64,000 nucleotides of DNA, taken from assembly GCF_030506305.1 (NCBI RefSeq), contig NZ_CP119421.1:3860501-3924500 (forward strand), written 5' to 3'. Source of the DNA: Porifericola rhodea (GTDB lineage: Bacteria; Bacteroidota; Bacteroidia; Cytophagales; Cyclobacteriaceae). Positions within the stretch are counted from its first letter, which is position 1. Each line of letters opens with the position of its first letter. Both the position numbers and the translations under genes were made by a program. The notes under the pieces are model-generated. The model saw only the letters and a list, made by a program, of their open reading frames with translations, searched no databases and was not told the DNA's origin. This document shows, in pieces, positions 40,254-59,577 of the stretch.

Positions 40254-40309
40254 TAAAGGATATATAAGAATAATTTAAAAATATATTGCTTGTGTATAAT
40301 TTTTTCCGA

Positions 40310-41104: not shown

Positions 41105-41125
41105 AATTAATTAACATTTTCAACG

Positions 41126-43561
41126 ATGGAAAACATTAAAAGAGTTAATGAAGGCAGCGCGGATATACTACCGCTACTTTATAAAATCAAGACAAAGTGG
41201 TATTGGTTTGCATTAAGCTGTCTGTTCTTTTTAGCCATAGCAATCGTGTATAGCAAATTTGCCGAAAAGCGCTATGCTGTACAGGGAAGCATACTGTTTG
41301 AGGCTAGAGAAAGAGGATCTACTGAAGTAGATGAGTTGCTTGATGACAGGGGACAAGCTAACAGCAGAGATGAAGGTAAAATTGCCCTTACTAACGAAAT
41401 TGCCAAGCTGACCTCCGAACGTATGATTGGTGCGGCTATTGATGGGTTAGGCTTTGATGTGTCTTACTATACAACTGAGAAATTCTGGCCTGGATTTCTT
41501 AAGGAAAAGTGGATGAATGAGCGGTATGAGGATTTTCCTATACAGGTAAGTATAGATAGCTCACAGTTTCAGTTAGTTGGAGTGCCTATACACGTATCTT
41601 TTGTGTCTGAAGATGTAGTGAAAATTGAAGCACATGCAGAAGAAGTAAGAGCATTCAATTTTGAGACGCAGGAGTTTTCTGGTATCATACCTGAAATATC
41701 ATTTTCTGAAGATGTAAAACTCGGGCAGAAAATAGAGTCTAAATATCTAACTATTACTGTAGATGCAGACCCTAATTCTTTAGTTAGCACAGAGGAGTAT
41801 GATCTGGCTTTTAAAATAAATTCTACTAAGTCGCTTATAGACAGCTATAAATCTATGCTGGCAGTTACTCCGGTAGATGTTACTGATCAGAACTCGCGCG
41901 TTGTAAACCTGGCGATGGAAATTAATATACCCGCCAAAGGTGAAAAATTTATTAACTCTTTGATTGAGGCCTATGCTGGCAATGTGCTGAATACAAAAAA
42001 TTCTAAAGGTGAAAACTCGCTGGAGTTTATAAACAAAAGACTAGCTGTAGTTACTGACTCACTCAAAGATGCGGAGCTTCAACTACAGAACTTTAAGTCT
42101 TCTTCAAACATACTGGATGTAGACTATGCAAAAAATAGCTTATATAATCGTTTAGATAGACTTGAGCAGGAAAAAGCTACAGTAGATGACCAGCTTTCTT
42201 ACTACAGAAGTACTTTAAGATCACTTAACGATGATTCTCAAAGTGGGAAAATTGTCGCTCCTGCTGCGGTTGGAATTACAGACCCGTTCTTCAACAAACT
42301 GATCGACAACTATGTGCAATTAAGCAGCAGACTTCAGCAAATGAAGTATAATGCCACTGACTCTAACCCATTGGTAACTCAGCTAGAGCGTGATGTGGCT
42401 GATTTAAGACAAGCTATAAAAGACAATGTATCCGGTATAGTTTCTTCACTTTCTACAACACAGAGCAGGCTAAACAGAGAAATATATCAGCTAAGAGCAG
42501 ATGCTAACACATTGCCTCAGAGTGAAAGACAGCTTTCTGTGATGGAGCGTAACTATGAATTTTACAAAGACAAGTATGACGCTTTAATGGAGAAAAAAGC
42601 TGAGGCGGAAATTATTCTGGCTACCAATACTACAAATGTTGAGACTATAGAGAGAGCAGAAGTACAGGGTAACGGACCAGTATGGCCTAAAACTCCTTTG
42701 TTCCTATTTGCAGCAGTAATTCTGGGGCTAAGCTTTCCTCTAGCTTTCATTGTAGTGTCAGATTATCTGGACAACCGTGTAAGCGATAAAGAAGAACTAG
42801 AGAACAAAACCAAAGTACCTTTATTGGGTATGATCGCGAACGGACCTAAGGATGCTGGATTAGTTCTTAAAAAATATCCTAACTCAGCTATAGCGGAATC
42901 ATTTAAGTTTGTTAGAGTTAATCTGCAATACTTCCATCAGGATGTAAAAGATCAGGTAATTGGTATCACTTCTTCTATTAGTGGTGAAGGAAAAACATTC
43001 TGTTCTGCAAATATCGCTGCTACTTATGCTGATTCTGGTAAGCGTACTTTGTTAATATGCGGCGACCTGAGGAAGCCTAGAATTCAGGATTATTTTGACT
43101 TGAAAGGCCCCGGATTAACAGATTATTTACAGGAGTTCACTTCTCTGGATAATGTGATACAGCCTACCGAATTTAGAAATCTGGATGTTATTGCGCCCGG
43201 ATCTCCACAAGACGACCCTACTAAATTGTTTGAGTCTGCGAATGCAGAAAGATTATTTGAGGAATTAAAAGGTCGTTACGATAAAATAATCGTGGAGACA
43301 CCCCCAATCGGTTATGTAGCAGACTACTTTGTGTTAATCAAACATTTTGATATTAACCTTTTTGTGGTTCGCTATAAGTATACCAACAAAAACATACTGG
43401 TAGGCATTAATGACCTTTACAAGAACAATAAGATCAAGAATCTATACTTGTTGTTCAATGATGTTAAACATAGCGGTGAGTATGGCTATGGTTATCTCAG
43501 CAACGATAAAGGTTACTACACCAAGACCAAGAAGAAGGCACTTAAAAATCCTTTTGCTTAA
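41126..43561 (+). CDS. Wzc-like polysaccharide co-polymerase with tyrosine-kinase domain
   Basis: The product of 811 aa has a first membrane helix (about 28-47), a long periplasmic coiled-coil region, a second membrane helix (about 528-550) and a cytoplasmic BY-kinase-like domain. Walker A is GITSSISGEGKT (613-624), Walker A' LLICGDLRKP (about 642-651) and Walker B IIVETPP (about 721-727), where the usual Asp residues of A' and B are Gly and Glu. The tail is rich in Tyr (YGYGYLSNDKGYYTK), the usual autophosphorylation cluster. It regulates chain length and export with the Wza-like protein. Confidence 0.93.
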   Translation: MENIKRVNEGSADILPLLYKIKTKWYWFALSCLFFLAIAIVYSKFAEKRYAVQGSILFEARERGSTEVDELLDDRGQANSRDEGKIALTNEIAKLTSERMIGAAIDGLGFDVSYYTTEKFWPGFLKEKWMNERYEDFPIQVSIDSSQFQLVGVPIHVSFVSEDVVKIEAHAEEVRAFNFETQEFSGIIPEISFSEDVKLGQKIESKYLTITVDADPNSLVSTEEYDLAFKINSTKSLIDSYKSMLAVTPVDVTDQNSRVVNLAMEINIPAKGEKFINSLIEAYAGNVLNTKNSKGENSLEFINKRLAVVTDSLKDAELQLQNFKSSSNILDVDYAKNSLYNRLDRLEQEKATVDDQLSYYRSTLRSLNDDSQSGKIVAPAAVGITDPFFNKLIDNYVQLSSRLQQMKYNATDSNPLVTQLERDVADLRQAIKDNVSGIVSSLSTTQSRLNREIYQLRADANTLPQSERQLSVMERNYEFYKDKYDALMEKKAEAEIILATNTTNVETIERAEVQGNGPVWPKTPLFLFAAVILGLSFPLAFIVVSDYLDNRVSDKEELENKTKVPLLGMIANGPKDAGLVLKKYPNSAIAESFKFVRVNLQYFHQDVKDQVIGITSSISGEGKTFCSANIAATYADSGKRTLLICGDLRKPRIQDYFDLKGPGLTDYLQEFTSLDNVIQPTEFRNLDVIAPGSPQDDPTKLFESANAERLFEELKGRYDKIIVETPPIGYVADYFVLIKHFDINLFVVRYKYTNKNILVGINDLYKNNKIKNLYLLFNDVKHSGEYGYGYLSNDKGYYTKTKKKALKNPFA

Positions 43562-43562
43562 T

Positions 43563-43605
43563 AAAAAAGGGGAAGCCTAATATAACATGCGCTTTCCCTT
43601 TTTTT
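43563..43605 (+). terminator. Terminator after the Wzc-like gene
   Basis: AAAGGGGAAGC pairs with GCTTTCCCTTT (one G-T pair), and a T-run of seven follows. It may reduce read-through into the glycosyltransferase genes, so these may be transcribed less or from their own promoter. Confidence 0.85.
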
Positions 43606-43668
43606 ATGCGCTTAAAATAATATAACTATTCTAATATTTTTTAAGATTAATTAAGAGTAGAGTTTATA

Positions 43669-44742
43669 ATGGCAGAATCCATATTTAATAAAGTCCTTTT
43701 CGTAGCTCCAAATTATAAGTATTGGAAAGGTGGAATATCTTCTGTTATTATGGGTTATAAAAAAGCAATTACAGATTTCAACTACGTTCCCAGTACAACA
43801 TCATCTAATATTGTTATAACTACGATATCCTTTCCTTTTCTTTTGATAATTTTTACTTGGAAACTGTTAGCAAACAAGAACTATAAAATTGTGCACATAC
43901 ATGGTGCTTCAAAAGGAAGCTTTTTTCGTAAATATGTGTATTTCAAGCTTACTAGAATAATGGGTAGAAAAGTAGTCTACCATATGCATGGAGCTGGATT
44001 TCATCTTTTTTATAAAGATACTTCACCTTTTGTAAGGAAGCGAATTCAGTATATGATCAATAATGCTGATACACTTATTGTGTTGTCTAAATGGTGGCAG
44101 AACTTTTTTAACAGTGAGTTTAGACCAAAAAAGATTGAAATAGTACCAAACATAGTTGAGGCGCCAAGTGTAGTGAACCGTAGCTCTCATGTAAAGAATG
44201 AATATTTAAATCTTTTATTTCTAGGTAGAGTTGGTGATCGCAAAGGTATATTTGACTTGTTAAAAGTTTTTTCAACTGATGTGTCTTTTTTTAAGGCTCA
44301 TTTTAAATTAAAGGTTGGAGGAGATGGTGATATTGATAGGTTAAAAAGTAATATAAGTGAGATGGGACTAAGTGAAATGGTAGAGTACATTGGCTTTGTG
44401 GAGGGTGAACAAAAAGCAAAAGCTATTCATAAGGCTGATATATATGTTTTGCCATCTTATAATGAGGGGCTGCCTATTTCTATTCTAGAAGCAATGGCAT
44501 ACTCAAAGGCAGTAATATCAACTACTGTAGGGGGTATACCAGAGATAATAGAAGATGGATATAATGGTAGTCTAATAGAGCCAGGTAATCTTGAGGCTTT
44601 AAAATCTGCTTTGCTACAGTTGTTAAATGACCCTTCTAAATTAAAACTGTATGGTGAACGTTCGTATAAAATTGTAAGTAAAAGACATTTTCCAGATGCA
44701 GTGCTTAGCTGTCTTTACCAACTTTATTCAAACATAGAGTAA
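43669..44742 (+). CDS. Glycosyltransferase, GT4-type (GT-B fold)
   Basis: The product of 357 aa has the GT-B two-domain shape. The C-terminal donor site shows LFLGRVGDRKG, ADIYVLPSYNEGLPISILEAMA with the E-x7-E pair E266/E274, and GGIPEIIEDGYNG. The N-terminal part has WKGGISSVIMG, the acceptor-side loop. It likely adds one sugar to the lipid-linked repeat at the cytoplasmic face. The donor sugar is unknown. There is a 154-bp AT-rich gap to the next gene. Confidence 0.92.
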   Translation: MAESIFNKVLFVAPNYKYWKGGISSVIMGYKKAITDFNYVPSTTSSNIVITTISFPFLLIIFTWKLLANKNYKIVHIHGASKGSFFRKYVYFKLTRIMGRKVVYHMHGAGFHLFYKDTSPFVRKRIQYMINNADTLIVLSKWWQNFFNSEFRPKKIEIVPNIVEAPSVVNRSSHVKNEYLNLLFLGRVGDRKGIFDLLKVFSTDVSFFKAHFKLKVGGDGDIDRLKSNISEMGLSEMVEYIGFVEGEQKAKAIHKADIYVLPSYNEGLPISILEAMAYSKAVISTTVGGIPEIIEDGYNGSLIEPGNLEALKSALLQLLNDPSKLKLYGERSYKIVSKRHFPDAVLSCLYQLYSNIE

Positions 44743-44824
44743 TGCCAATAATTACCGTTTTAATTTTTTATCTAGTGATTTTTGCATTTAACAAAGTACT
44801 CTATTACGATCAAATAATTATATG

Positions 44825-44850
44825 ATGTCTTCATAATTACATGAAGATAT
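44825..44850. repeat. Hairpin between glycosyltransferase genes
   Basis: TCTTCAT and ATGAAGA are exact complements over a six-base loop; adding a G-T pair extends the stem to 10. There is no T-run. It could be an attenuator or chance in an AT-rich 154-bp gap. Confidence 0.3.
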
Positions 44851-44896
44851 AATTTTCAGATATTAACCAAGACCTAATTATACTAGTATTATTACA

Positions 44897-45913
44897 ATGA
44901 AAAAAGTAATAGTGAGAAGCCGTAGAAATGTTTTTCGGCATGAAACAGACATACTTGTAACCCGATATGGTTTTCAGGATATTAATAATGGTGAGACATC
45001 TAAAGGGATCAAAACAAGAAAAGAACTTATTCTCTTCTTTTTGAGTGACATTCTTTTTGTGTTAAGAAACATCAAAAAAATATCAAATTCTGAAGTCATA
45101 ATAGTCACAGGTTATAGTGCTTTAGTGATTAAGTTATTGATTAGACTTGGTATCATAAAGTACAAAAAGCTGTTGTGGTTCGGTTTTTTTATCCATTCAG
45201 ATTCAGCTTATAAAGTATTTAAAGTGGTTTTACGCTTTTTAAGGCTTAAGCATGAAGTCATGGTGCTTAATTCTATCTATGAAATTCCTTTGTATGCTGA
45301 AAGACTTGGTATACCTGAAAAAAAATTAACTTGTTTTAAATTAGGGGACTGGAAGAAACCAGTAGAGTTGTTTGACGATGACTATGTTCCACCATTCAAT
45401 GAGTATTGTTTTGCCGGAGGTTTTACGAATAGAAACTATTCTACTCTTATAGAAACTTTCAGGGGTTTAGATAAAAATCTAATAATAGTAGGTTCTCAAC
45501 TAAATAGTGATCTGAAAGATCTAAGCAACCTTCCTTCAAATATCATTGTAAAGAAGGATATAGATAAACGTGAATTTGAATCTCTAGTCGTACACTCAGA
45601 CATTTGTATACTCCCTATGAAGGATCCTGAAGCAGGTGCATCAGGACACATGGTTTTACTGGCATATATGCGTCACAAAAAAACTATTCTTGCCTCTAAC
45701 TTCCCAGCGATCCGCGAATATCTAGAGCACAACAAATCTGGAATTCTTTATAATAACCCAGAAACAGAGATTCCTTCAATACTCAATAAAATTGATTCTG
45801 GCACTTACAACAAGAAAGTATTGGGCGAGCAAGCTTACTTAGATTATAAAGAAAACTTTACTGCAGATGCATTAGAAGCTAACCTTGTCAAAATCGTTGA
45901 AACTAATTTGTAA
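44897..45913 (+). CDS. Glycosyltransferase-like protein
   Basis: The product of 338 aa is less typical than its neighbours. A GT-B C-terminal half is suggested by CFAGGFTNRNYSTLIETF, DKNLIIVGSQL, SDICILPMKDPEAGASGHMVLLAYM and ASNFPAIREYLEHNKSGIL. The E-x7-E motif is not present in normal form: here it reads DPEAGASGHMVLLAY, as in some GT4-like membrane-edge enzymes. It is likely an inner-leaflet transferase of the same polysaccharide. It ends 9 bp before the next gene. Confidence 0.78.
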   Translation: MKKVIVRSRRNVFRHETDILVTRYGFQDINNGETSKGIKTRKELILFFLSDILFVLRNIKKISNSEVIIVTGYSALVIKLLIRLGIIKYKKLLWFGFFIHSDSAYKVFKVVLRFLRLKHEVMVLNSIYEIPLYAERLGIPEKKLTCFKLGDWKKPVELFDDDYVPPFNEYCFAGGFTNRNYSTLIETFRGLDKNLIIVGSQLNSDLKDLSNLPSNIIVKKDIDKREFESLVVHSDICILPMKDPEAGASGHMVLLAYMRHKKTILASNFPAIREYLEHNKSGILYNNPETEIPSILNKIDSGTYNKKVLGEQAYLDYKENFTADALEANLVKIVETNL

Positions 45914-45922
45914 AAGTAATTG

Positions 45923-47032
45923 ATGGAGTATAAGATATTAGTATTAACGCCAGATCTCAGAGTACCAGGAGGAGTTAGTAATTATTACGAAACACTTAAA
46001 CTGGAAGAAGTTGCCGAAGTAGAGTACTTTTTTGTCAGCCCTGAAAAAGATGAATCTTTATATGGTGTGGTATGGCGGATGCTTACTAACTATATAGCGT
46101 TTATTAAATTGTTACGAAAAGGCAATATTAAGCTTGTACATATTAATCCTTCATTGAACTTAAAGTCTTTTATTAGAGATGGCCTATATGTAATTCTTTC
46201 TCACCTTCTACGAAAAAAAACTTTGGTGTTCTTTCATGGTTGGTCTGATGAGTTTGAATTAAGGATACATAATAAAAGCTATTTGAAGTTTTTCTTTAAC
46301 CATTCTTTTAAAAGATGTAAGGACATTATTGTACTCAGTGACTCTTTTAGAAGAAAGCTTATAAGTTTGGGGTGTAGTGAGTCACACACAAAATTCTGGA
46401 TTGAAACTACAGTTGCTGATACTTCATTTCTGGAAGGGTTTTCTTTAGAAGAAAAAATAACAACTTATAAAAAGCTAAATCATTGTAGGATTTTGTTTCT
46501 CTCCAGAATAGAAGAAACTAAAGGAGTTTTTATCACTATCAATGCTTTCAAAAAGCTCCAGGATGACTTACCGGATAAGTCTTTTGAACTTATTATTGCA
46601 GGTGATGGTAGTGCTTTAAATGATGCTAAAAAAGTAGTAGAAGAGCAGAGAGTTCCAAACGTTACTTTTACTGGTTATGTAAGAGGTGAAGGCAAAGGAA
46701 TAGAGCTACATAAGGCTCATATATTTTTGTTTCCAACTTACTATGGAGAGGGGATGCCTACCAACATTCTTGAAGGTATGTTATATGGTATGCCTATCGT
46801 CTCCAGATACAATGCAGGTATAGCAGATTCGGTAGGTGATGGAGAGAATGGATTTTTAACTGAAAGTAAAGAGCCATCAGTGTTCACAGATATGCTAAAG
46901 AAAATAGTTCAAAACCCCGAACTATATGAAAGAATGGTTAGAATAAATCACAAGAAAGCACTTGAGAACTTTGCTTCTGAAAACGTAAGAGAGCGAATAC
47001 TAAAAATTTACCAAACCATAATTGAAAGGTAA
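45923..47032 (+). CDS. Glycosyltransferase, GT4-type
   Basis: The product of 369 aa has an N-terminal LVLTPDLRVPGGVSNYYETL and the donor-side IAGDGSALNDAKK, FPTYYGEGMPTNILEGMLYG (E276/E284), and GDGENGFL. It is a typical GT4 retaining transferase. A TTG one codon upstream (45920) is possible. The gene ends 2 bp from the stop of the convergent beta-helix gene, so the two strands meet here with no terminator in between, and read-through antisense RNA is likely. Confidence 0.92.
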   Translation: MEYKILVLTPDLRVPGGVSNYYETLKLEEVAEVEYFFVSPEKDESLYGVVWRMLTNYIAFIKLLRKGNIKLVHINPSLNLKSFIRDGLYVILSHLLRKKTLVFFHGWSDEFELRIHNKSYLKFFFNHSFKRCKDIIVLSDSFRRKLISLGCSESHTKFWIETTVADTSFLEGFSLEEKITTYKKLNHCRILFLSRIEETKGVFITINAFKKLQDDLPDKSFELIIAGDGSALNDAKKVVEEQRVPNVTFTGYVRGEGKGIELHKAHIFLFPTYYGEGMPTNILEGMLYGMPIVSRYNAGIADSVGDGENGFLTESKEPSVFTDMLKKIVQNPELYERMVRINHKKALENFASENVRERILKIYQTIIER

Positions 47033-47034
47033 CA

Positions 47035-48888
47035 TCAGTTATTTTTTGGAATTGATTCAAAGGCACCGATATCAGGTTTGTTAGTGATAAGGTTACCTTT
47101 GATATCCTTTTTGTAAGCACTCATATCAACTCCCTGGTCTACAGCGGGAGCGTTTTCTCTAAGACCAAAGTCCATTTTGCTGAGGTTAAGAAAGAGTAAT
47201 GAGAGGGCGTTGCTTTTGTCATTCTGGCCGTTATAGGCTCCAGTACTTTTACCACCCGCCAGGATGTTATTTTTTCCAGTGGCTTTCCCACTGCTGACCA
47301 ATGCTCTGATATCCTTGTCTTTACCTTGTAGTATGTTGTTGCAGATTTCTACGTTTCCTGCATAGGATCCCTGCGTATAGAGTTTAAGCGCATCGGTTCC
47401 AGCATTGATCACGGTATTATTAAAAACTTGGAAGCCTTTGCTGTTCAAAGCGCCATTGATTTCAATGCCTACTTCACCTATGTTGTAAATGAGGTTACCG
47501 TACACCTGGCCGCTTTTAGAATTGTTGGTAGTAATACCCACTTGCTTGCCCTTAAGGTTGTGGTAGATGTTGTAGATAGTGTTATATCGTACAATAACAT
47601 TTTCACTGAAGAGCTCACCTACTCCGCTGGCCGTTTGTCCGGCACTATTATATCCGCCGGCTTTGATGCCTCTACCAGATTTGGTGTTTTTATGAGGAGA
47701 GTGAATAGTATTATGCTCAATAATAATATTCTTAGCCCCATAAGTTTCAATACCGTTACTGTAGAATCCGAAGACTTTGTTTTTACGGATCACAAAATTG
47801 TTCATGTCCCCTCTAGAGGTAAGTATATTTTCCCAGGGGTCGCTGCTACCTTCCTTGACGATATCTCTGGCGATACAATTCTCAATACGACCACCTTCGT
47901 GTATGGTATGTCTACCGTCAAAGGGCCAGATCTGGGTACCGATAAGACAGCGGAAATGTCCATAGACTTCAGAGTTAAGCACCTGTGGATGGGTTGTGTT
48001 AAAAAGGGCTGACTCTTTATGGCTGCTGTTATACACCCAAGTATTAGTTCTGATACCAAAGTATCCATTCTGATTAGTAGCGCTTACCTCACAGTTGCTA
48101 ACGACAGGATACTTACAACCTAAAAGCTGTATTCCATCATCGCTGGCTCTTCCGGGTCCATCTACAATGACATTGATATTATCAATCAAGACATAGTCTC
48201 CTCTTACACTCAGGGTAGCACCTTTGAGGATATAGCCTTTATACTTAAACTCAGAAGTAGAGCCACTCACCCCATTACTTTTGATGACAGGTTTTTTCCC
48301 ATTACCGTAAGCCCCGAAAGTAATGTAGTTGTTAGGGGATCCAGATTTATTGATAATGATGTTATCGTTCCACTGGTCACCTCTTTTAAGAAGGACAAAA
48401 TCTCCAGGTCCTACTTTGTCGAGAGCTTTATCAATAGAACGTAGAGGAGCCTTAGGACTAGTACCATTAAAGCTATCATTTCCGGATGTAGAGACGTAGA
48501 AGATTTGTCCCTTACCATGATAAGCGGAAGTTTGATTGTGTACATCTAAGTCTTCAAACCCCTGGAGCGGTAGTCCATCGGCAAAGGCATCGCCAAGCTC
48601 AGGCCAGTAGAGGAGTTTGAAGTCATCATCAGGTAGAGCGTAGTCGGTGAGAGAGAAGACTAGTTGGTTGGAACCACTTCCACCGATGAGTTTATCAATG
48701 CGTGCGGCTCCACCAGTAAGTCGGAAGCCATCTGCGTTAGAGACGGTGATATTCTGATTAAAGCTAACAACTAGATAGTTACTACGACTATCACTAATTA
48801 CCGCATCTTTTACAGATTGACCTAAGCATGTTATTATCCAAAAGTAAGCAACTGATGTCAAAAATATAATCTTTTGCTTCTGCACCAT
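47035..48888 (-). CDS. Secreted parallel beta-helix protein, short form (no anchor)
   Basis: The product of 617 aa has a signal peptide (about 1-24), an all-beta N-terminal domain (DAVISDSRSNYLVVSF onwards, about 27-120), and a right-handed parallel beta-helix (about 125-600) that starts YVSTSGNDSFNGTSPKAPL, as in polysaccharide lyases and epimerases. It ends with GAFESIPKNN, so it has no sorting domain. The 585-residue core is identical to that of the neighbouring long form. I see no catalytic triad I can name, so lyase, hydrolase or epimerase are all open. In this locus it probably acts on the exported polysaccharide. Confidence 0.85.
   Translation of the reverse strand: MVQKQKIIFLTSVAYFWIITCLGQSVKDAVISDSRSNYLVVSFNQNITVSNADGFRLTGGAARIDKLIGGSGSNQLVFSLTDYALPDDDFKLLYWPELGDAFADGLPLQGFEDLDVHNQTSAYHGKGQIFYVSTSGNDSFNGTSPKAPLRSIDKALDKVGPGDFVLLKRGDQWNDNIIINKSGSPNNYITFGAYGNGKKPVIKSNGVSGSTSEFKYKGYILKGATLSVRGDYVLIDNINVIVDGPGRASDDGIQLLGCKYPVVSNCEVSATNQNGYFGIRTNTWVYNSSHKESALFNTTHPQVLNSEVYGHFRCLIGTQIWPFDGRHTIHEGGRIENCIARDIVKEGSSDPWENILTSRGDMNNFVIRKNKVFGFYSNGIETYGAKNIIIEHNTIHSPHKNTKSGRGIKAGGYNSAGQTASGVGELFSENVIVRYNTIYNIYHNLKGKQVGITTNNSKSGQVYGNLIYNIGEVGIEINGALNSKGFQVFNNTVINAGTDALKLYTQGSYAGNVEICNNILQGKDKDIRALVSSGKATGKNNILAGGKSTGAYNGQNDKSNALSLLFLNLSKMDFGLRENAPAVDQGVDMSAYKKDIKGNLITNKPDIGAFESIPKNN
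47055..48809 (-). repeat. 1755-bp direct repeat, copy A
   Basis: Copy A lies 3748 bp from copy B (50803-52557) in the same orientation. I compared several lines and the translated products in three frames and found no difference. The ends fall within coding sequence, with no inverted repeats, target-site duplication or transposase. Confidence 0.95.
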
Positions 48889-48948
48889 ATCTATCGTTTT
48901 TGCTTAAAAATGATGTTGGCTTTGATATTAGTTTAAAAAATATCAAAA

Positions 48949-48977
48949 AAAAAGGGCTATTGAAAATAGCCCTTTTT
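48949..48977. terminator. Bidirectional terminator between the two beta-helix genes
   Basis: A perfect 13-bp stem, AAAAAGGGCTATT / AATAGCCCTTTTT, with loop GAA, lies 20 bp past the stop of the long-form gene. It separates the two genes, so the short form needs its own promoter in the 60 bp before its start. Confidence 0.92.
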
Positions 48978-48997
48978 GGTTAGAATAAGTTTCGTAT

Positions 48998-51900
48998 TTA
49001 TCGCTTTAGAAGATTTACATTTTTGATAATCTGACCATTTGACGATAGAGATAAGATATATTTACCTGTAGGTAAATTATACTGCTCTATCCCTAATTGA
49101 ATCTGAAAGCCAGGGTTTGATAGCTCCTGGGCTAAAACTATTCTACCATTCATGTCAACTATTTTAAGGCTAACTGATCCATAAATCTGATCAAACTTAA
49201 TATTGAGGTATGCATCTACTGGGTTGGGGTATACTAATATCTCGCCAGTATTTGGAAATAGTGAATCCTCGATATTATCATCCTTTAGTGTTTGTGTTTC
49301 ATTAGTATTTTTCGTTACGGATTTTGATGAAGAAGCTACTCTTGCGTTATTATTTAAGCTGGAGGCAAGCTTGTTAGAAGGAATAAGTTTCTTGCTTACT
49401 CCAGGGCCTGCATATCTTACTTCTAATACTTCACCATGACTACGCTCAAAGAAAGTTACTTTTATCGGATGCCATCCTTTAGTTAAGTAAACTTTACCTG
49501 ATACTTCTTCTGCTGCATGTACACCGTCATTATCAACAATCTCTTTGCTATTTATATACAGTTTTGATCCGTCATCTGAAGTGGTGTAGAAAGTATAAGT
49601 ACCATCAGAATCAATCTGAATGTAACCTTCGTATACAAAGCCAAACCGTTCTTCACTTTCTCTTGGCTCAAGAGAAAAATTGTTCACTTTACCAGATTTT
49701 TCAACATTCAATTTGCTAAAGTCAGGTAACTGATACCAATACCCTTCATAGTACTTATAATTTAATCCTGCTTCTACACTTGGTTCATCTGGTTCTGGTG
49801 TAGGGGTTGGCTCAGGTGTAGTGTCGGTTTTTTCTGTATAAAGCTTGCTACCAGGTATTATTTGTTTGCTTACTCCAGGTCCTGCATATTTTACTTCCAA
49901 TAGTTGGCCACTGGAGCGCTCAAAGAAAGTTACTTTTATAGGATGCAAACCTTTGGTAAGATATACGTTGCCAGACTTTTCTGTTGGTCCATGCAGCCCA
50001 TCATTATTAACAATCTCTTTGCTATTTATATACAGTTTTGATCCGTCATCTGAAGTTGTATAGAAAGTATATGTACCATCGGAATCAATTTGAATGTAAC
50101 CTTCGTATACAAAAGCAATTTTATCGTTTCTCTCTCTTGGACTAATATTAAAGTTAGTTATTCTACCGCTTTTATAAGCTTTAAGTTTACTAAAATCAGG
50201 CAGTTGCGTCCAATCACCATGGTAATACTTGTAATTAAGTCCTGCTTCGGCATCAGGCTGTTCGGGTGAAGGTGTTGCGTTGCCTTTGTCTGTAAATAAT
50301 TTTGTGGTAGGAATTAATTTCTTACTAACTCCTGGCCCAGCGTACTCAACTTCTAAAATCTGGCCTCTGGTACGCTCGAAGTAATTCACTTCAATGGAAT
50401 GTAGCCCTTTAGTCAGGTAAATTTTGCCAGACTTTTCAACGGCTCCATGCAAGCCGTCATTATCTACAATTTTTTGATTGTTGATAAATAGCTCAGAGCC
50501 ATCGTCAGAAGTAGTGTAAAAAGTGTAAGTGCCATCCGTATCAATTTGGATATAAGCCGAAAACTCAAAACCAAAATATTCTTCTCTATTCCTTGGACTT
50601 AAGGTGAAGTTACTTACTTGTCCAGACTTGACAGCCTGAATTTTGCTAAAGTTGGGCAACCTTGTCCATTCTCCCTGGTAGTAACTATAGTTTACGCCAT
50701 TTTCTCCCGTAGGCTCTTCAGGTTCTGGGGTAGGAGTTGGTTCAGGTTCTGGAGTTGGCTCTGGTGTAGGGGTTGGAGTAGGAACAGCAGATTCATCAAA
50801 ATATTCAAAGGCACCGATATCAGGTTTGTTAGTGATAAGGTTACCTTTGATATCCTTTTTGTAAGCACTCATATCAACTCCCTGGTCTACAGCGGGAGCG
50901 TTTTCTCTAAGACCAAAGTCCATTTTGCTGAGGTTAAGAAAGAGTAATGAGAGGGCGTTGCTTTTGTCATTCTGGCCGTTATAGGCTCCAGTACTTTTAC
51001 CACCCGCCAGGATGTTATTTTTTCCAGTGGCTTTCCCACTGCTGACCAATGCTCTGATATCCTTGTCTTTACCTTGTAGTATGTTGTTGCAGATTTCTAC
51101 GTTTCCTGCATAGGATCCCTGCGTATAGAGTTTAAGCGCATCGGTTCCAGCATTGATCACGGTATTATTAAAAACTTGGAAGCCTTTGCTGTTCAAAGCG
51201 CCATTGATTTCAATGCCTACTTCACCTATGTTGTAAATGAGGTTACCGTACACCTGGCCGCTTTTAGAATTGTTGGTAGTAATACCCACTTGCTTGCCCT
51301 TAAGGTTGTGGTAGATGTTGTAGATAGTGTTATATCGTACAATAACATTTTCACTGAAGAGCTCACCTACTCCGCTGGCCGTTTGTCCGGCACTATTATA
51401 TCCGCCGGCTTTGATGCCTCTACCAGATTTGGTGTTTTTATGAGGAGAGTGAATAGTATTATGCTCAATAATAATATTCTTAGCCCCATAAGTTTCAATA
51501 CCGTTACTGTAGAATCCGAAGACTTTGTTTTTACGGATCACAAAATTGTTCATGTCCCCTCTAGAGGTAAGTATATTTTCCCAGGGGTCGCTGCTACCTT
51601 CCTTGACGATATCTCTGGCGATACAATTCTCAATACGACCACCTTCGTGTATGGTATGTCTACCGTCAAAGGGCCAGATCTGGGTACCGATAAGACAGCG
51701 GAAATGTCCATAGACTTCAGAGTTAAGCACCTGTGGATGGGTTGTGTTAAAAAGGGCTGACTCTTTATGGCTGCTGTTATACACCCAAGTATTAGTTCTG
51801 ATACCAAAGTATCCATTCTGATTAGTAGCGCTTACCTCACAGTTGCTAACGACAGGATACTTACAACCTAAAAGCTGTATTCCATCATCGCTGGCTCTTC

Positions 51901-52645
51901 CGGGTCCATCTACAATGACATTGATATTATCAATCAAGACATAGTCTCCTCTTACACTCAGGGTAGCACCTTTGAGGATATAGCCTTTATACTTAAACTC
52001 AGAAGTAGAGCCACTCACCCCATTACTTTTGATGACAGGTTTTTTCCCATTACCGTAAGCCCCGAAAGTAATGTAGTTGTTAGGGGATCCAGATTTATTG
52101 ATAATGATGTTATCGTTCCACTGGTCACCTCTTTTAAGAAGGACAAAATCTCCAGGTCCTACTTTGTCGAGAGCTTTATCAATAGAACGTAGAGGAGCCT
52201 TAGGACTAGTACCATTAAAGCTATCATTTCCGGATGTAGAGACGTAGAAGATTTGTCCCTTACCATGATAAGCGGAAGTTTGATTGTGTACATCTAAGTC
52301 TTCAAACCCCTGGAGCGGTAGTCCATCGGCAAAGGCATCGCCAAGCTCAGGCCAGTAGAGGAGTTTGAAGTCATCATCAGGTAGAGCGTAGTCGGTGAGA
52401 GAGAAGACTAGTTGGTTGGAACCACTTCCACCGATGAGTTTATCAATGCGTGCGGCTCCACCAGTAAGTCGGAAGCCATCTGCGTTAGAGACGGTGATAT
52501 TCTGATTAAAGCTAACAACTAGATAGTTACTACGACTATCACTAATTACCGCATCTTCAACCACTATCTGTCCCAATGCACTTAATGCTGTGCTAGTAAT
52601 AAGTAGTAATAAGATGAAACCTACTTTAAAGGTAGAAATTCTCAT
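48998..52645 (-). CDS. Secreted beta-helix protein, long form with three PA14 domains and T9SS sorting domain
   Basis: The product of 1215 aa starts at ATG 52645 (MRISTFKVGFILLLLITS, signal peptide to about residue 25); a more distal Met at 52699 lacks a signal-like start. The order is signal, all-beta domain, beta-helix (the same 585 residues as the short form), a Pro/Thr/Glu-rich linker, three PA14 domains separated by similar linkers, and a C-terminal T9SS type A sorting domain (GEILVYPNPVDAYLNIKF to NGQIIKNVNLLKR). PA14 domains often bind glycans. The protein is likely exported by the type IX system and anchored on the cell surface. Confidence 0.9.
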   Translation of the reverse strand: MRISTFKVGFILLLLITSTALSALGQIVVEDAVISDSRSNYLVVSFNQNITVSNADGFRLTGGAARIDKLIGGSGSNQLVFSLTDYALPDDDFKLLYWPELGDAFADGLPLQGFEDLDVHNQTSAYHGKGQIFYVSTSGNDSFNGTSPKAPLRSIDKALDKVGPGDFVLLKRGDQWNDNIIINKSGSPNNYITFGAYGNGKKPVIKSNGVSGSTSEFKYKGYILKGATLSVRGDYVLIDNINVIVDGPGRASDDGIQLLGCKYPVVSNCEVSATNQNGYFGIRTNTWVYNSSHKESALFNTTHPQVLNSEVYGHFRCLIGTQIWPFDGRHTIHEGGRIENCIARDIVKEGSSDPWENILTSRGDMNNFVIRKNKVFGFYSNGIETYGAKNIIIEHNTIHSPHKNTKSGRGIKAGGYNSAGQTASGVGELFSENVIVRYNTIYNIYHNLKGKQVGITTNNSKSGQVYGNLIYNIGEVGIEINGALNSKGFQVFNNTVINAGTDALKLYTQGSYAGNVEICNNILQGKDKDIRALVSSGKATGKNNILAGGKSTGAYNGQNDKSNALSLLFLNLSKMDFGLRENAPAVDQGVDMSAYKKDIKGNLITNKPDIGAFEYFDESAVPTPTPTPEPTPEPEPTPTPEPEEPTGENGVNYSYYQGEWTRLPNFSKIQAVKSGQVSNFTLSPRNREEYFGFEFSAYIQIDTDGTYTFYTTSDDGSELFINNQKIVDNDGLHGAVEKSGKIYLTKGLHSIEVNYFERTRGQILEVEYAGPGVSKKLIPTTKLFTDKGNATPSPEQPDAEAGLNYKYYHGDWTQLPDFSKLKAYKSGRITNFNISPRERNDKIAFVYEGYIQIDSDGTYTFYTTSDDGSKLYINSKEIVNNDGLHGPTEKSGNVYLTKGLHPIKVTFFERSSGQLLEVKYAGPGVSKQIIPGSKLYTEKTDTTPEPTPTPEPDEPSVEAGLNYKYYEGYWYQLPDFSKLNVEKSGKVNNFSLEPRESEERFGFVYEGYIQIDSDGTYTFYTTSDDGSKLYINSKEIVDNDGVHAAEEVSGKVYLTKGWHPIKVTFFERSHGEVLEVRYAGPGVSKKLIPSNKLASSLNNNARVASSSKSVTKNTNETQTLKDDNIEDSLFPNTGEILVYPNPVDAYLNIKFDQIYGSVSLKIVDMNGRIVLAQELSNPGFQIQLGIEQYNLPTGKYILSLSSNGQIIKNVNLLKR
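49375..50700 (-). repeat. Three tandem PA14-domain repeats
   Basis: Three coding repeats of about 400 bp lie at roughly 50300-50700, 49840-50255 and 49375-49780. Each encodes a G-x-Y-x-Y-x-G-W-x-L-P-D-F-S-K type start, the core DGTYTFYTTSDDGS, and a G-H-x-x-E/K-x-Y-F/TFFER stretch. Linkers between them are Pro/Thr/Glu-rich and the DNA there is made of short G/T-rich units, which may slip. Confidence 0.85.
50803..52557 (-). repeat. 1755-bp direct repeat, copy B
   Basis: Copy B of the repeat lies in the long-form gene. Outside these borders the two genes differ at once: on the 5' side the signal peptides differ, on the 3' side the short form stops and the long form runs into the linker. Confidence 0.95.
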
Positions 52646-52668
52646 GATTATCTGATTGTATAAAGTGT

Positions 52669-52699
52669 CAAATTGTATTTCCATTTGCACTACTATCAA
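52669..52699 (-). promoter_or_regulatory. Possible promoter of the long-form beta-helix gene
   Basis: On the minus strand TTG (52697-52699) and TACAATTTG (52669-52677) are 19 bp apart. The -7 box has three, not two, bases between TA and TTTG, so the match is approximate. It lies 24 bp before the ATG at 52645. Confidence 0.35.
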
Positions 52700-53402
52700 T
52701 CAGAGCACCAATTGATCTAGACAGCTAGTTATCTATGTTAGTAAAAAGAGCAAGTTTATACGTGTCAATGAGTAAATTTGAGAGTATTTGAAAAATTATA
52801 TAACTACTGATACATGGGGTCAAAAATAATATTTAGTTAAAAAAGCCTATATGGATTAATAGAGAGGGGTTACTAAGTATAATAATGAAAGATGAGTACG
52901 ATGTAAGGTAATGAGTTTTAAGAAGAAATATGTAGGAGAAAAAAAAGTGAAATTTTTTGAAACACTAAATTAATACAATAGTTAATCTTAATTTGATATT
53001 CTGTTTTTTTCATTTTTAGAATGATAATGATAGATATACCAGCTCTTAAATATCAACTTTATATAAATATAGCCTGAATTTTTAAAATTATTTAATGTAT
53101 ATGAATTCAGCCTCTCCAATAATAAAATAAGAATATTAAAAAAAATTGTTTGAAAAGTTATAAAAAGTGGCGTATGATATAACATGAAATTTATAAATAC
53201 AGTACCACATTTACATTTCTCTCCAGATGCACCAATAATAGCATTAACAATTTATTCTGAAGCTATTCACTTTTAAAAAGACAAGAAGAAGATACTAGCT
53301 AAAAAAGAATACTTTGAAAAGTTATATTTTATATGTTAATACACTAATTAATGAGTAGCTTTAATAGGGTGTGAAAGCGCAGCTCTTAAAATTTTATTGA
53401 AG
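52700..53402. other. AT-rich gene-poor stretch between the beta-helix genes and the capsule operon
   Basis: About 700 bp without a convincing gene. The only small open frame (52988-53185, minus, 65 codons) is biased in a way that fits AT-rich noise. I see no tRNA, terminal inverted repeats, or remnants of a transposase. It may hold an unrecognised small RNA or a relic of a removed gene. Confidence 0.6.
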
Positions 53403-53431
53403 AGAAGAGGATACATAATATATCCTCTTCT
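53403..53431. terminator. Hairpin at the end of the capsule operon
   Basis: AGAAGAGGATA and TATCCTCTTCT pair exactly (11 bp) over a seven-base loop, 8 bp beyond the stop of the ATP-grasp gene. The T-run on the minus strand is weak, so termination may be partial. Confidence 0.75.
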
Positions 53432-53439
53432 ACATTTAA

Positions 53440-54531
53440 TTATTTATTAATAATGTTGAAGAACTTTTGATTCAATGATTTTTCTTCAATTGTGATATCT
53501 GGTTGTATAAGCTCGGGCATTCCTAGTAAATCAACTAAATGCCAGTATTGTGGCCAATAATGACCTTCATGCCAATTCATCTCTTCATCCCAATATCCCG
53601 GACATTTAATTACACTTTGGCCATGTGTATATGATATTTCGCAGATTACAGGTTCATTATGCTCATCATATAAGAAATCATAAGCCATGCATTGATAATT
53701 GAGTGTTCTTGAAACTTGCTGAGCAAGCTTGATACACCTTAAGTCAATATTAGCAGGTTCTAGATCTAATTTTTTGCTACCAGAAGCTCTAAAGTCGTTT
53801 TCCCTATTGAATCGACGAAATGCGAAAGCTCTACCACCTATGACGACTACCCTTGTATCAAAAGTATTATCAGGCATAAATTTTTGGAATAGCGCATAGT
53901 TCTTATGTAACTGCCATCTAAAATTAATATCTTCTCCGTTTAAAGTTTTTAGAAGATTCCCTCCCCAATGTCTAATTTTCTTGCCTATATCGAAATCTTG
54001 ATATTTGACGTGTCCTTTGTCAGGTATTTTTCCTGAAATAAATCCCGAACCAAAAATTTTCTTAATAAGTTTTTTGCCTCTATTACGAGATTTAATCATT
54101 ATAACGTTACTGGAACTTGCTCCTCCCTTGAGTTTGAAGATTACTGGAAGCTCTGTACTATCCATCCAACTCAATGCGCTTTGTTTATCCCAAAACACAT
54201 AACTATCAATAGCCGGAAACCCATGAGCTTTTAACTGAAAAAATTGTTTTATTTTATCATCATAATGCCAATAAGTATGATAATTAGGTAAACATCCTTT
54301 CTTAAAATCTTTTTCAATAATAGGGAGAATAGTATGACCCAGTTGGTGGTGATCACTAGTATCAAGCCATCTGGATAGAAAAAAGTCTATGCTTTCAATT
54401 TTTTTCCAAAAATCAGGCTGACTTGCATGTAGTCTGATACTTTCAATATGATTATGAATTAGAATCTTTTCATAGATTTCTTCAAAATCAGATAATTTTT
54501 GTTTGGAAAATTGATGAATACCAACTTTCAT
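53440..54531 (-). CDS. ATP-grasp ligase of unknown substrate
   Basis: The product of 363 aa has an ATP-grasp core: K133/K135 and a loop GGASSS (136-141), the central DTRVVVIGGRAFAFRR with D226, a metal-side D285 and E298 in CEISY. The usual second metal ligand (E-x-N) is a Ser here (E298-I-S300). ATP-grasp enzymes join a carboxylate to an amine or thiol. In this operon it might add an amino acid or peptide to the polysaccharide or to a precursor. It follows capA by 2 bp. Confidence 0.85.
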   Translation of the reverse strand: MKVGIHQFSKQKLSDFEEIYEKILIHNHIESIRLHASQPDFWKKIESIDFFLSRWLDTSDHHQLGHTILPIIEKDFKKGCLPNYHTYWHYDDKIKQFFQLKAHGFPAIDSYVFWDKQSALSWMDSTELPVIFKLKGGASSSNVIMIKSRNRGKKLIKKIFGSGFISGKIPDKGHVKYQDFDIGKKIRHWGGNLLKTLNGEDINFRWQLHKNYALFQKFMPDNTFDTRVVVIGGRAFAFRRFNRENDFRASGSKKLDLEPANIDLRCIKLAQQVSRTLNYQCMAYDFLYDEHNEPVICEISYTHGQSVIKCPGYWDEEMNWHEGHYWPQYWHLVDLLGMPELIQPDITIEEKSLNQKFFNIINK

Positions 54532-54533
54532 AA

Positions 54534-55697
54534 TTATTTATTTAAGTTTCTGTTAAGGATGTCAATTACTGCGCTTCTATGTGACTGACATCTATATAAG
54601 TTTAATAGCCGAGGAAGATACTTCCCTTCGTTAATAACTGACTTCAATAGCTTCTTTTTTAGAAGAAACCTTTCAATTTTATTTAATTGAAATATACTTG
54701 AGTAATACATGAGTTGGTTAGCTTTAGTAAACTGATGCCAACTCTCTTTCAATTTGTTATCGTTTTTAATTATGATATTATACTCCTCTATAGTTTTAAG
54801 GTAATCTTCTTTTAGTTTACCTGTCATAAGTTTAATAATTGGCTCATCAATACATTGAGTATAAGGATAAATAGTAAAGGCTTGAACTTCTCCTTTAAGT
54901 AAAGACAATTTCACAAAGTATCCTTTATACCAATTATCTGCCTTTTTTATTGCTTTGTCGAAATTAAAGTTACCTAGGCTGTAAAAGATAGGAGCTCCTT
55001 TGTACACCTCGTATCCACTGGCAAAATGAGTATGATGACTTACAACAGCATCTGCACCTATATCAATAAAAAAACGATAAGTTCTTTTAAGTTCTGGACT
55101 TGGTAAATGATAATGTTCATTACCTCCATGTACTATTAACAGAACAAAATCTGCGTTTTTTTTAGCTTCAGAAATCTGAGAGTATAGGTAGGGAAGATCG
55201 ATAGGATTAGCGCCTGCAGATGATTCTTCAGCAACACAAAACTCTTGATCTGCAGCATTGATAATGGCAATAGTTTGAGAGTTTACTTTTGAATATAATA
55301 TACGTTGAGCTTCAGCAAGCGTATTTCCTACACCCACTGTTTTAATTCCTGCATTATGGCAAGTTTCTACAGTATCTCTCATTCCCTCATCACCCTGATC
55401 CATAATATGATTGTTTGCGAGTGTAGCAATATCAAATTTTGCTACAGAAAGTGCTTCTATTGAAGCAGGAGAGGCTTTGAGGTTGGGGCCAACTTTAACT
55501 ATTGGTTTGCCTCCTTTAGTTAAAGGACATTCTAAATTTGTGATAGATAGGTCCTTATTTGTTAACACTTTTAAAATCTCGTCATCGTAGATTTTGCTAG
55601 CTTGCTGAGAGGTGGAAAGTGTTTCGACTCTATGTTGAGGACAGAAGTCACCAGTTATGATGATATCAATAGGTTTCTGAGCACTCATATTAAGCAT
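54534..55697 (-). CDS. CapA-family (poly-gamma-glutamate/capsule) metallophosphatase-like protein
   Basis: The product of 387 aa has the CapA/PgsA motifs: ITGDFCPQHR, TNLECPLT, LANNHIMDQGDEG, VHGGNEHY and VSHHTHFASGYEVYKG, all part of the calcineurin-like metal site. No signal peptide or anchor is visible in the first residues, so location is uncertain. It starts at 55697 (overlapping the preceding gene by 8 bp) or at ATG 55688. CapA proteins occur with polymer synthesis and attachment loci, but the reaction is often unknown. It may cooperate with the ATP-grasp protein. Confidence 0.87.
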   Translation of the reverse strand: MLNMSAQKPIDIIITGDFCPQHRVETLSTSQQASKIYDDEILKVLTNKDLSITNLECPLTKGGKPIVKVGPNLKASPASIEALSVAKFDIATLANNHIMDQGDEGMRDTVETCHNAGIKTVGVGNTLAEAQRILYSKVNSQTIAIINAADQEFCVAEESSAGANPIDLPYLYSQISEAKKNADFVLLIVHGGNEHYHLPSPELKRTYRFFIDIGADAVVSHHTHFASGYEVYKGAPIFYSLGNFNFDKAIKKADNWYKGYFVKLSLLKGEVQAFTIYPYTQCIDEPIIKLMTGKLKEDYLKTIEEYNIIIKNDNKLKESWHQFTKANQLMYYSSIFQLNKIERFLLKKKLLKSVINEGKYLPRLLNLYRCQSHRSAVIDILNRNLNK

Positions 55698-56907
55698 TTG
55701 TTTTTTTTGTAAAACCCTTTTGTTTTTTTAAAGCCAATTTTTCTAGAAATTCAGATATCCTATTTCCTTGTGTTTTGTAATTGAAATTATTTTCAGCGGT
55801 GAGTTTACCTTTTCTGCCTATTAACAAGCTTTGGTCATGATTTTCAATAATAAAATCAATTTTATGAGCAAAAGCCTCATGATCTCCGGCATTTACAAGT
55901 AGGGCATTTTCCAAATCCTTGAGGTAATAAGGAATTTCACCTACATTAGTAGAGACTACAGGTTTACCTGTGGCTAAATATTCTCCAATTTTGCTTGGAA
56001 AGCATGTGCTAGATTGCAGTGTGTCAGGTTTAGCTACGACTAAGGCTAGGGCGTTACTTAAATAATAGAGTAGCTCCTCTCTAGATACATAACCAGTAAG
56101 TATCACTTGTCTTTCTAAGTTTAGTTCTGCAATCAGTCTTTTAACTTTTTGCTCGTCTTTAATTCCCCCCTTACCAATTACATAAAACTTAAGCTCAGAA
56201 TGTTTTTTACTTACTATAGCAAAGCTCTTTATTAAGCTAATTATTCCATCTTTTTTGTCTGACAAGTTTCCTGAATAGGCTATAAAAGGTGGAGCTTCCG
56301 GGTCAGGAGAAGGAAACTCTTTCATATTAACGATTACAGGAACTTTTAACAGTTTACTATTTTTGCCGATTTTTGATTCAAAAAAAGAATGCAGTGATTC
56401 TGAAATGACTAAAATTCCATCAAAAAGCTTATAAATAGTCTTGTTATGAATATTTCTAAATATTCTGCCTGTTAGACTAGGCTTCTTTTTAAATACAAAA
56501 GGGAATTCACTTTTCTCCTGAATATATAGTGCTCCTGTTATTAAACTGACTACCTTAAAAGTAAAGATATGATAAAGGTAGTTGCTTACTACAAGTACAA
56601 CATCTGTAGGTTGCTTTTGAAAAAGTATATGTTTGGCAGCTAAAAGAGGACCAGCAATATCCTGAATACGCCTTTTTATAAAGTTATTACTTCTATATGT
56701 TGTGTTATTAGCGTACAAGTAATCTATACCTTGATGATTACCTAATATATTTTTGTTTTTGGCTGTACTTTTTTTTTCAAGTGGTAGAGGAACGATAATC
56801 TCAACATTATGTCCTGCTTCAGTTAAGCCAAGTGCGTAATTATGTATTCTATTAGTGCAAGCCATACCATAAGGATATGGTTGCTTTAAAATGATTTTAA
56901 CATTCAT
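55690..56907 (-). CDS. Glycosyltransferase, GT4-type
   Basis: The product of 405 aa has the N-terminal QPYPYGMACTNRIHNYALGL and donor-side PPFIAYSGNLSDKKDG, FYVIGKGG and FPSKIGEYLATGKPVVSTNVGEI. It is a typical GT-B retaining transferase. It follows the Wzx-like gene by 11 bp and overlaps the CapA gene at its end, so it is part of a five-gene operon. Substrate unknown. Confidence 0.92.
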   Translation of the reverse strand: MNVKIILKQPYPYGMACTNRIHNYALGLTEAGHNVEIIVPLPLEKKSTAKNKNILGNHQGIDYLYANNTTYRSNNFIKRRIQDIAGPLLAAKHILFQKQPTDVVLVVSNYLYHIFTFKVVSLITGALYIQEKSEFPFVFKKKPSLTGRIFRNIHNKTIYKLFDGILVISESLHSFFESKIGKNSKLLKVPVIVNMKEFPSPDPEAPPFIAYSGNLSDKKDGIISLIKSFAIVSKKHSELKFYVIGKGGIKDEQKVKRLIAELNLERQVILTGYVSREELLYYLSNALALVVAKPDTLQSSTCFPSKIGEYLATGKPVVSTNVGEIPYYLKDLENALLVNAGDHEAFAHKIDFIIENHDQSLLIGRKGKLTAENNFNYKTQGNRISEFLEKLALKKQKGFTKKTNA

Positions 56908-56918
56908 AACCGTATAAG

Positions 56919-58181
56919 TTAGCTGGATCTTTTAGCAACAAAGTTTTTGTACTGTATTGCCAAGTATAAAAAGTAAGACACATTAGAGAATACTAAAGTA
57001 ATACATGCTCCAACGGTTCCTATTAACTTAATAAGAACAACAAAGCCAATGATATTGACTGCTCCCCTAATAAAAGATGCATTTTTCAGTTCCCTTCCAA
57101 TCCCATGAGCACTTAAAAATCTATTAAGGACTAAGTATAGCCCTTGTATTACATAAGCAAATGAGATATAGTAGATTAAGGTTACTACTGGTAGGTAATC
57201 TTCGGAATAAAGAAAAACAATCACATACTTAATCATTAAAATAAATGCTCCAAACGCTAAAAGTGAGATCAGAATAGTTGAACTAATTACTTTTTTAGGA
57301 ATTCTGTCGGAGTTTGCAAAATCTTTAAAATATGCTGTTCCTACTACCTGGGGAATCATAGAGAGAGGAGTAGCAATTGTATTAGCTAAATTGAAATATC
57401 CGACATTTGTGTTGTCTAAGTAATAAGCTATGATAAAGCTACTCAAATGGAGTGTTCCATTACTTACTAAAGCACCTATGTAGATTTGAAAGCCATGATC
57501 TTTGTTTTCAGCAAATATCAGTTTGGAAGTTTCAGAAAAACCCGAGAAGTCTGGTGAAAACTTGCTGTAGCCATAGACAGTAGAAACTAATTGAGTAAGC
57601 AAGAATACTCCTAGAACTATCATCAAATTGAGTTCTAATACTAGACTGGCTATAAGGATAAAAACAACATATAATACCTTAGGAGCAATCTGAAAAATTG
57701 CCAGTTCATGTATTAAGTTATCACCCTCCATAAACTTGTCTAGAGCTATCTTAAATACAAATACAAAGGTAAAAGGAGCAGCGTATCGAATGATATAGCC
57801 GAGGTTATTATCAAATATGTATTCCTGTACATAAGATGATACAAAAACAGTTGCTATAAACAAGCCTGATATCAGGAAGGTAAGTCCAAACAAACCACCA
57901 AAAATCTTCTTTCTAATATGTTGAAATTGCTTATCTGCAATTAACCTTCCTCCTGTATGGAAGATACCTACCGAGAAAAAGATCATCATGATATTGAAAA
58001 TACTTTGAATAAATTTAAAATCTCCAAAGCTTTCAGGACCTAATAACCTTGTATTAATTACACTGGTACCTATTCCTAAGCCAATGCCTAATGCAGAAGA
58101 AGTAAGCATAGAGAGGATCTGCTTAAACTTCTTACTTTTAGTCTGCTCAACTACCTTCTGTTTATACTTTTGTAAGATCAT
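56919..58181 (-). CDS. Wzx-like flippase (polysaccharide transporter, MATE/MVF superfamily)
   Basis: The product of 420 aa has about 12 membrane helices and the NTRLLGPESFGDFKFIQSI start that is typical of O-antigen or capsule flippases. It should move lipid-linked repeats across the inner membrane. It overlaps the preceding Wzy-like gene by 20 bp, which implies coupled translation. Together with the next gene this marks a Wzx/Wzy-dependent pathway. Confidence 0.92.
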   Translation of the reverse strand: MILQKYKQKVVEQTKSKKFKQILSMLTSSALGIGLGIGTSVINTRLLGPESFGDFKFIQSIFNIMMIFFSVGIFHTGGRLIADKQFQHIRKKIFGGLFGLTFLISGLFIATVFVSSYVQEYIFDNNLGYIIRYAAPFTFVFVFKIALDKFMEGDNLIHELAIFQIAPKVLYVVFILIASLVLELNLMIVLGVFLLTQLVSTVYGYSKFSPDFSGFSETSKLIFAENKDHGFQIYIGALVSNGTLHLSSFIIAYYLDNTNVGYFNLANTIATPLSMIPQVVGTAYFKDFANSDRIPKKVISSTILISLLAFGAFILMIKYVIVFLYSEDYLPVVTLIYYISFAYVIQGLYLVLNRFLSAHGIGRELKNASFIRGAVNIIGFVVLIKLIGTVGACITLVFSNVSYFLYLAIQYKNFVAKRSS

Positions 58182-59538: not shown

Positions 59539-59577
59539 GCTATATTAACTTACCTGTTTGTTGTAACAAATTGCACT

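Follow-up and report, generated by a model that had tools for sequence, protein, structure and literature searches.

Two neighbouring genes with a common core

The subject here is a pair of neighbouring genes in the bacterium Porifericola rhodea (NCBI RefSeq assembly GCF_030506305.1, contig NZ_CP119421.1, positions 3,860,501 to 3,924,500), the 64,000 nucleotides in question being called the window and supplying the coordinates used below. Both genes lie on the minus strand, and both contain one and the same core of about 585 codons, that is, a direct repeat of 1755 bp. Copy 1 (47055-48809, minus strand) lies inside the short gene and copy 2 (50803-52557, minus strand) inside the long gene, at an offset of 3748. 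A first-pass annotation of the window had described this repeat as identical in its DNA, with sharp borders inside coding sequence, and base-by-base comparison bears this out: There are 0 mismatches over 1755/1755 bases, i.e., no scattered silent differences; the match cannot be extended by even 1 base at either end; and both ends of each copy fall within open reading frames (ORFs). The flanks differ between the two copies.

The match is the longest exact repeat of the window. Just one further exact direct repeat reaches 30 bp, namely one of 48 bp (49535-49582 and 50009-50056) between two of the long gene's PA14 units, and there are no exact inverted repeats of at least 30 bp within the 64 kb. 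Over the whole genome, a one-contig assembly of 5.49 Mb, a DNA search finds the core at these two places only. A mobile element was considered as the source of the repeat and rejected: None of the 15 inverted-repeat pairs of at least 18 nt reported between 46000 and 54000 brackets a copy, and no transposase was recognized by eye among the ORFs of at least 120 residues between 36 and 64 kb, both in agreement with what the first-pass annotation had said of the repeat ends (target-site duplications were not searched for).

The short gene (47035-48888, minus strand) encodes 617 residues, consisting of a signal peptide of its own (by eye), the core, and then a tail of six residues, SIPKNN, before the stop. 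Its signal peptide and linker (48810-48888, minus strand) lie outside of the identical stretch, identity ending at 48809. Pfam matches Beta_helix only in this gene, and neither Pfam nor NCBIfam detects in it a sorting domain of the type IX secretion system (T9SS). The long gene (48998-52699, minus strand) is listed with 1233 residues from a TTG codon, an ATG at 52645 being the likelier start (by eye). As counted from that ATG, its signal peptide and linker (52558-52645, minus strand) precede the same core, with the signal peptide unlike that of the short gene. Three PA14 domains then follow, and the protein ends in a T9SS type A sorting tail (Pfam, NCBIfam). The PA14 domains (PF07691, all on the minus strand) are found at 50306-50704, 49853-50140, and 49373-49768, as converted from positions in the P. 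rhodea genome containing the window, i.e., G000:C1:3910806-3911204, G000:C1:3910353-3910640, and G000:C1:3909873-3910268. The C-terminal sorting domain lies at 49028-49234 (minus strand; PF18962 at residues 1156-1224, along with TIGR04183).

With both PF18962 and TIGR04183 above cut-off, and with the T9SS marker SprA (TIGR04189) found in the genome, as indeed it is in 3/3 genomes of the genus, the long protein has the marks of T9SS cargo; the sorting tail and SprA would, in addition, suggest membership of the Bacteroidota. The long form, on its sequence, should reach the surface via T9SS, and the short form, in which no T9SS sorting domain was found, should stay periplasmic or be released. A choice-of-anchor Q match, common to both proteins and located at the end of the core, stays below its cut-off (NCBIfam, 19.6 of 25 bits). 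Between the long and short genes is a terminator-like hairpin (48949-48977, minus strand; consensus scan), which has a 13-pair stem and a T run. Terminator-like sites as found by that scan nonetheless number 4 per region, which is not above the 4.7 and 4.8 obtained from shuffles.

The same pair in a sister species

Three genomes of the genus were compared. Besides P. rhodea, only the sister species, G001, carries the core, making the pair syntenic in 2/3 of these genomes. Within G001 a short and a long gene are found in the same order, on the same strand, and in the same place beside the same glycosyltransferases, with a 14-pair terminator-like hairpin at the matching place between them. From the export gene to the heparinase-like gene, 14/19 picked ORFs of the G001 locus match ORFs of the window. 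Additional ORFs and a third beta-helix gene set the G001 locus apart, as does the lack of any match to the window's ATP-grasp and PGA_cap ORFs. The two G001 cores match one another at 1515/1517 bases, the two differences being one that is silent and one Ile/Leu replacement. The third genome, G002, has no core match and has different genes after its export pair.

Core proteins are identical at 584/584 and 505/506 residues within the two species, versus 47% (255/546) between them. Four-fold degenerate sites of the core differ at 0/247 within P. rhodea and at 1/222 within G001, versus 84/117 between species, and for nine neighbouring genes 61-79% of such sites differ per gene between species. Silent sites of the core, that is, are saturated between the species. 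Within-species identity in combination with that saturation indicates, so far as these sequences can, that the copies of each lineage were made alike long after the species had split.

The borders of the repeat are similar as well. The 5' border lies, to within two codons, at equivalent positions of the alignment in the two species, which is where signal peptide and linker end (by eye). In both species, too, the signal peptides of the short and long genes are unlike each other, yet join the core at nearly the same point.

At its other end the G001 repeat stops before the core does. The short gene there runs on in frame for about 15 residues that are family-like but diverged, and then stops early, i.e., without the last part of the core. 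A first test of this tail against four relatives from outside of the pair, which used 22 residues with the register shifted by one, gave no signal (75971/100000 shuffles reach the score). In a second test, designed after the tail had been seen, restricted to 15 residues, and aligning the conserved aromatic residue, the summed BLOSUM62 score versus those four relatives was 59, a value reached by 268/200000 shuffles and by 9/28338 background 15-mers; taken singly, the relatives gave 117, 1736, 558, and 260 of 100000 shuffles. As compared with the long gene of G001 itself, the tail's score was reached by 335, 746, and 2445 of 100000 shuffles for 12, 15, and 22 residues, and in later tests by 772/100000 shuffles and by 23/28338 background 15-mers. 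Of the tail's first 45 bases, 23/45 are identical to the long gene. The tail looks as if it were the remnant of an older second copy that has since been overwritten.

Other repeats were seen in these genomes. The long gene of G001 has an 877-bp internal PA14 duplication (L009:10600-11476 and L009:11545-12421), the copies of which are 99.8% identical (2 mismatches), which by its sequence would be a second recent homogenization or duplication within that gene. Beside the G001 pair, on the other strand, is the third gene (L009:16840 onward, into L069), with beta-helix, PKD-like, and PA14 parts, which is not homogenized; its helix and that of a gene from another genome, G175, are 65% identical. 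At the corresponding locus of G002, two 398-residue frames in opposite orientation (L067:10590-11786, minus strand, and L067:14570-15766, plus strand) have identical first 30 residues, and may be shadow frames belonging to an inserted element that is present in two inverted copies.

Gene conversion versus duplication

Probably these genes are an old adjacent pair in which gene conversion brings about concerted evolution, and not the product of one recent duplication. Short secreted and long T9SS-exported paralogues would have been adjacent prior to the species split. Homologous recombination, i.e., gene conversion, would then have copied one core onto the other at least once per lineage, leaving the core alike within a genome though divergent between species. 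The signal peptides, the sorting tail, and the PA14 repeats, all outside of the tract, would evolve independently. Conversion as the mechanism is what we infer from within-species identity, between-species saturation, and shared synteny. That the pair predates the split and was homogenized separately in each lineage is most likely since G001 has both genes at the corresponding place, near-identical to one another, with a core only 47% identical to that of P. rhodea. The ancestral copy number, which the first-pass annotation proposed to seek in sister strains, would on the G001 pair be two. That annotation had also left undecided whether the duplication was very recent or gene conversion was ongoing, a choice that the sister species largely decides: Conversion is favoured, and a single recent duplication in P. 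rhodea alone is rejected, as the pair is present in G001 too, where the copies are likewise near-identical to each other.

Certain points weigh against this interpretation. The pair has been seen in two species only, no survey having been aimed at identical pairs elsewhere, and one event per lineage suffices to explain it. In P. rhodea the tract spans the whole of the shared region, leaving no diverged remnant of an older copy, and in G001 the tail test was post hoc, on 15 residues, its first version having given no signal. The signal peptides are identical between species at 4/27 (short with short) and 6/35 (long with long) residues, and between short and long within species at 8/23 (P. rhodea) and 8/33 (G001); they do not establish orthology and are, if anything, slightly more alike within species, these being comparisons of very short stretches, with that of the P. 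rhodea long gene taken from the TTG start. The structure model of the core, too, is modest in quality, with a mean pLDDT of 54.9.

A different perspective is that the core of the long gene was partially duplicated, recently and independently, in each lineage, with each such event making a short neighbour. Within-species identity would by itself fit, as would the slightly greater likeness of short and long signal peptides within than between species; the long gene of G001 displays an internal PA14 duplication as well; and independent tandem duplication is named as an alternative for the tandem pair fla in PMC6053082. Duplication, however, would be needed twice, in the same place, order, and strand, with the core fused each time, in frame and at much the same position, to a signal peptide that is diverged, and with a similar hairpin in between, and it leaves the diverged, family-like tail of the G001 short gene unexplained. 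Overwriting of an old second copy is favoured instead, as order, strand, place, and hairpin agree in both species, as differing signal peptides meet the core near one common position in both (by eye), and as the G001 short gene keeps that tail. Independent duplication is, on balance, unlikely. More doubtful still, though compatible with gene conversion within an old pair, is an additional role for the direct repeats as a recombination switch. A 3748-bp loop-out would delete one signal peptide along with the PA14 domains and the sorting tail, by which the surface form could vary between on and off, and same-strand repeats of 1.5-1.8 kb, spaced by about 2-2.6 kb, are indeed present in both species. 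Against such a switch, there are no inverted sites at the borders, no recombinase was recognized by eye among the ORFs of at least 120 residues between 36 and 64 kb, and both assemblies carry the undeleted state.

Perfect identity across 1755 bp might also be expected of an artefact of assembly or polishing, but this is scarcely credible for a single-contig genome in which each copy has distinct flanks, and given that an independent genome, that of G001, has the same arrangement with copies differing at 2 positions. GC-biased conversion, or instead a foreign origin, as an account of the silent-site composition of the core is very improbable. Biased conversion looked promising relative to the locus: GC at four-fold sites in P. 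rhodea is 94/247 for the core versus 57/251 for the remainder of the long gene (Fisher p 0.0002); that of G001 is 112/223 for the core versus 777/2782 for other genes of the locus stretch (p 2.5e-11). It failed, however, when compared with ten 20-kb background stretches, five per genome, and is largely refuted. By that comparison the P. rhodea core is ordinary (0.381 versus 0.372, p 0.79; 28/62 genes as high) and that of G001 is slightly high (0.502 versus 0.425, p 0.02; 19/56 genes as high). It is instead the surrounding locus that is AT-rich.

The core, its relatives, and the polysaccharide locus

The AlphaFold model of the core was made from nine sequences. Residues 121-550 are largely at pLDDT of about 50-94, other than a poor region (20-51) around 281-360, and residues 21-122 are unreliable. 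Foldseek with this model finds solved, carbohydrate-active beta-helices, the first six of which are lacto-N-biosidases of glycoside hydrolase family 136 (GH136), with a best E of 2.7e-12 and, over the six, 12-18% identity; versus 7v6i_A the TM is 0.46 at a root-mean-square deviation (rmsd) of 10.0. VIA gives Z 26.4 versus 5gqc_D (rmsd 3.9, 409 aligned), with many other beta-helix proteins reaching equal or higher Z, and its listing at Z 25-32 includes alginate epimerases, RbmB, lyases of polysaccharide lyase family 6 (PL6), AlgG, tailspikes, and others, for example PL6 7o7a_B at Z 27.9 (rmsd 3.2, 328 aligned). Profile searches find lacto-N-biosidases (7v6m, 6kqs) as well as alginate lyases, these alignments being best toward the N-terminus of the helix domain and that to GH136 strong there only. 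A fold common to these matches does not, as modelled, prove function. From fold and context, the core may be taken to be a carbohydrate-active or carbohydrate-binding beta-helix, and its target would likely be the polysaccharide made by the surrounding locus.

Among 390 genomes of the family, with at most three candidates scored per genome, 93 have some match to the core at E 1e-3. Among the matches listed, only those of P. rhodea and G001 begin at query residue 1 or 2 and end at 551 or 583, with a prophage-like place in G001 covering 7-581 and G175 covering 98-583. At E 1e-20 matches are found in 2/390 genomes of the order (P. rhodea itself plus one short, partial match) and in 1/395 of the phylum (P. 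rhodea itself), these sets being samples, as G001, which carries the core, is not among the matches and evidently was not drawn. A profile search of the P. rhodea genome yields one further weak, partial match elsewhere (31 bits). Genome contigs and viral contigs were each searched twice, at first with no match and then with nine and six weak relatives, respectively, and phage records hold two weak matches. The third beta-helix gene of G001, as a query, matches 23/390 family genomes at E 1e-12, the only close match outside of the genus being that in G175 (65%).

The prophage-like place in G001 (G001:C1:7226000-7242000) contains a further core relative of 957 residues (L010:3995-8895), 33-35% identical inclusive of the N-terminal segment. 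It directly follows a gene matching phage tail fibre families and an Mtd_N domain, with a phage-integrase-like gene near. Its C-terminus is SGNH-hydrolase-like by eye, Pfam, PHROGs, and NCBIfam finding nothing there. Likely this relative is a prophage receptor-binding protein that employs the beta-helix module of the locus.

The core would act twice, once in the periplasm or shed (the short form) and once on the surface (the long form), and if both copies are kept alike then both would stay fitted to the same polymer. A possible, if rather tentative, extension is a lock on specificity across two compartments. That is, recognition of a cell's own exopolysaccharide would diverge fast from species to species, conversion would keep soluble and surface-anchored proteins matched, and phages would use the same module to read the coat, this last as the G001 relative adjoins a phage tail gene.

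Known systems offer partial likenesses. Concerted evolution by gene conversion is already well described, with mtrA-1/mtrA-2 of methanogens, by analogy, a very close parallel. According to PMC4632066, gene conversion there homogenizes a shared domain over long times, and these too are paralogues in one operon, one of which has an extra domain by fusion. Those genes, however, encode a core-metabolism enzyme and come from two archaeal lineages, versus here a fast-diverging, secreted beta-helix of a polysaccharide locus in two species. A survey reporting 26 prokaryotic genes with recurrent concerted evolution likewise describes paralogues that are closer within than between species, silent sites included, and the words 'surface' and 'bacteroid' are absent from its main text (PMC6053082). 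Among open-access titles and abstract beginnings, literature on concerted evolution or gene conversion together with beta-helix, polysaccharide lyase, or T9SS contains no such pair. RbmB, as described in PMC11637428, is a polysaccharide lyase that cuts Vibrio polysaccharide, i.e., it acts on the cell's own matrix polysaccharide, as is proposed for the core. The two are likened by fold (VIA Z 28.8 to 9ozl_C, rmsd 2.7, 303 aligned), many beta-helices scoring similarly. The GH136 lacto-N-biosidases (7v6i, 5gqc, 6kqs, 7v6m), as top Foldseek and profile matches, are likened by fold and profile only, and differ in that identity is 12-18% and the context here is polysaccharide synthesis.

The pair is a two-species bacterial case of a module that is strongly diverged between species but identical in neighbouring genes with different export tails. 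It may offer a natural setting in which to ask why such conversion should be tolerated, or indeed favoured, a common substrate in two compartments being the candidate reason. Should the core act on the locus's own polysaccharide, then the pair would represent a single enzyme or lectin in matching soluble and anchored versions, and would provide a way to follow the evolution of coat and coat processing together.

The locus around the pair, going by its gene content, is an exopolysaccharide or capsule locus. Next to the pair are export and glycosyltransferase genes (40286-47032, plus strand), consisting of Poly_export, Wzc-like, and three glycosyltransferase matches (Pfam), which are syntenic in G001 save for one extra ORF there. 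The remainder (53440-62936, strand not specified) includes ATP-grasp, PGA_cap, glycosyltransferase, flippase-like, Wzy_C-like, and heparinase II/III-like matches (Pfam), with the Wzy_C-like match under the Pfam cut-off. ORFs 55690-56907 and 59678-60820 were outside of that Pfam run and are labelled glycosyltransferases by eye. Genes over 43669-58181, the repeat pair excepted, have four-fold GC of 0.16-0.24, versus 0.29-0.47 for those within the window's first 40 kb, and a low value (0.19) is likewise seen over 20 kb surrounding the gene for ribosomal protein L2.

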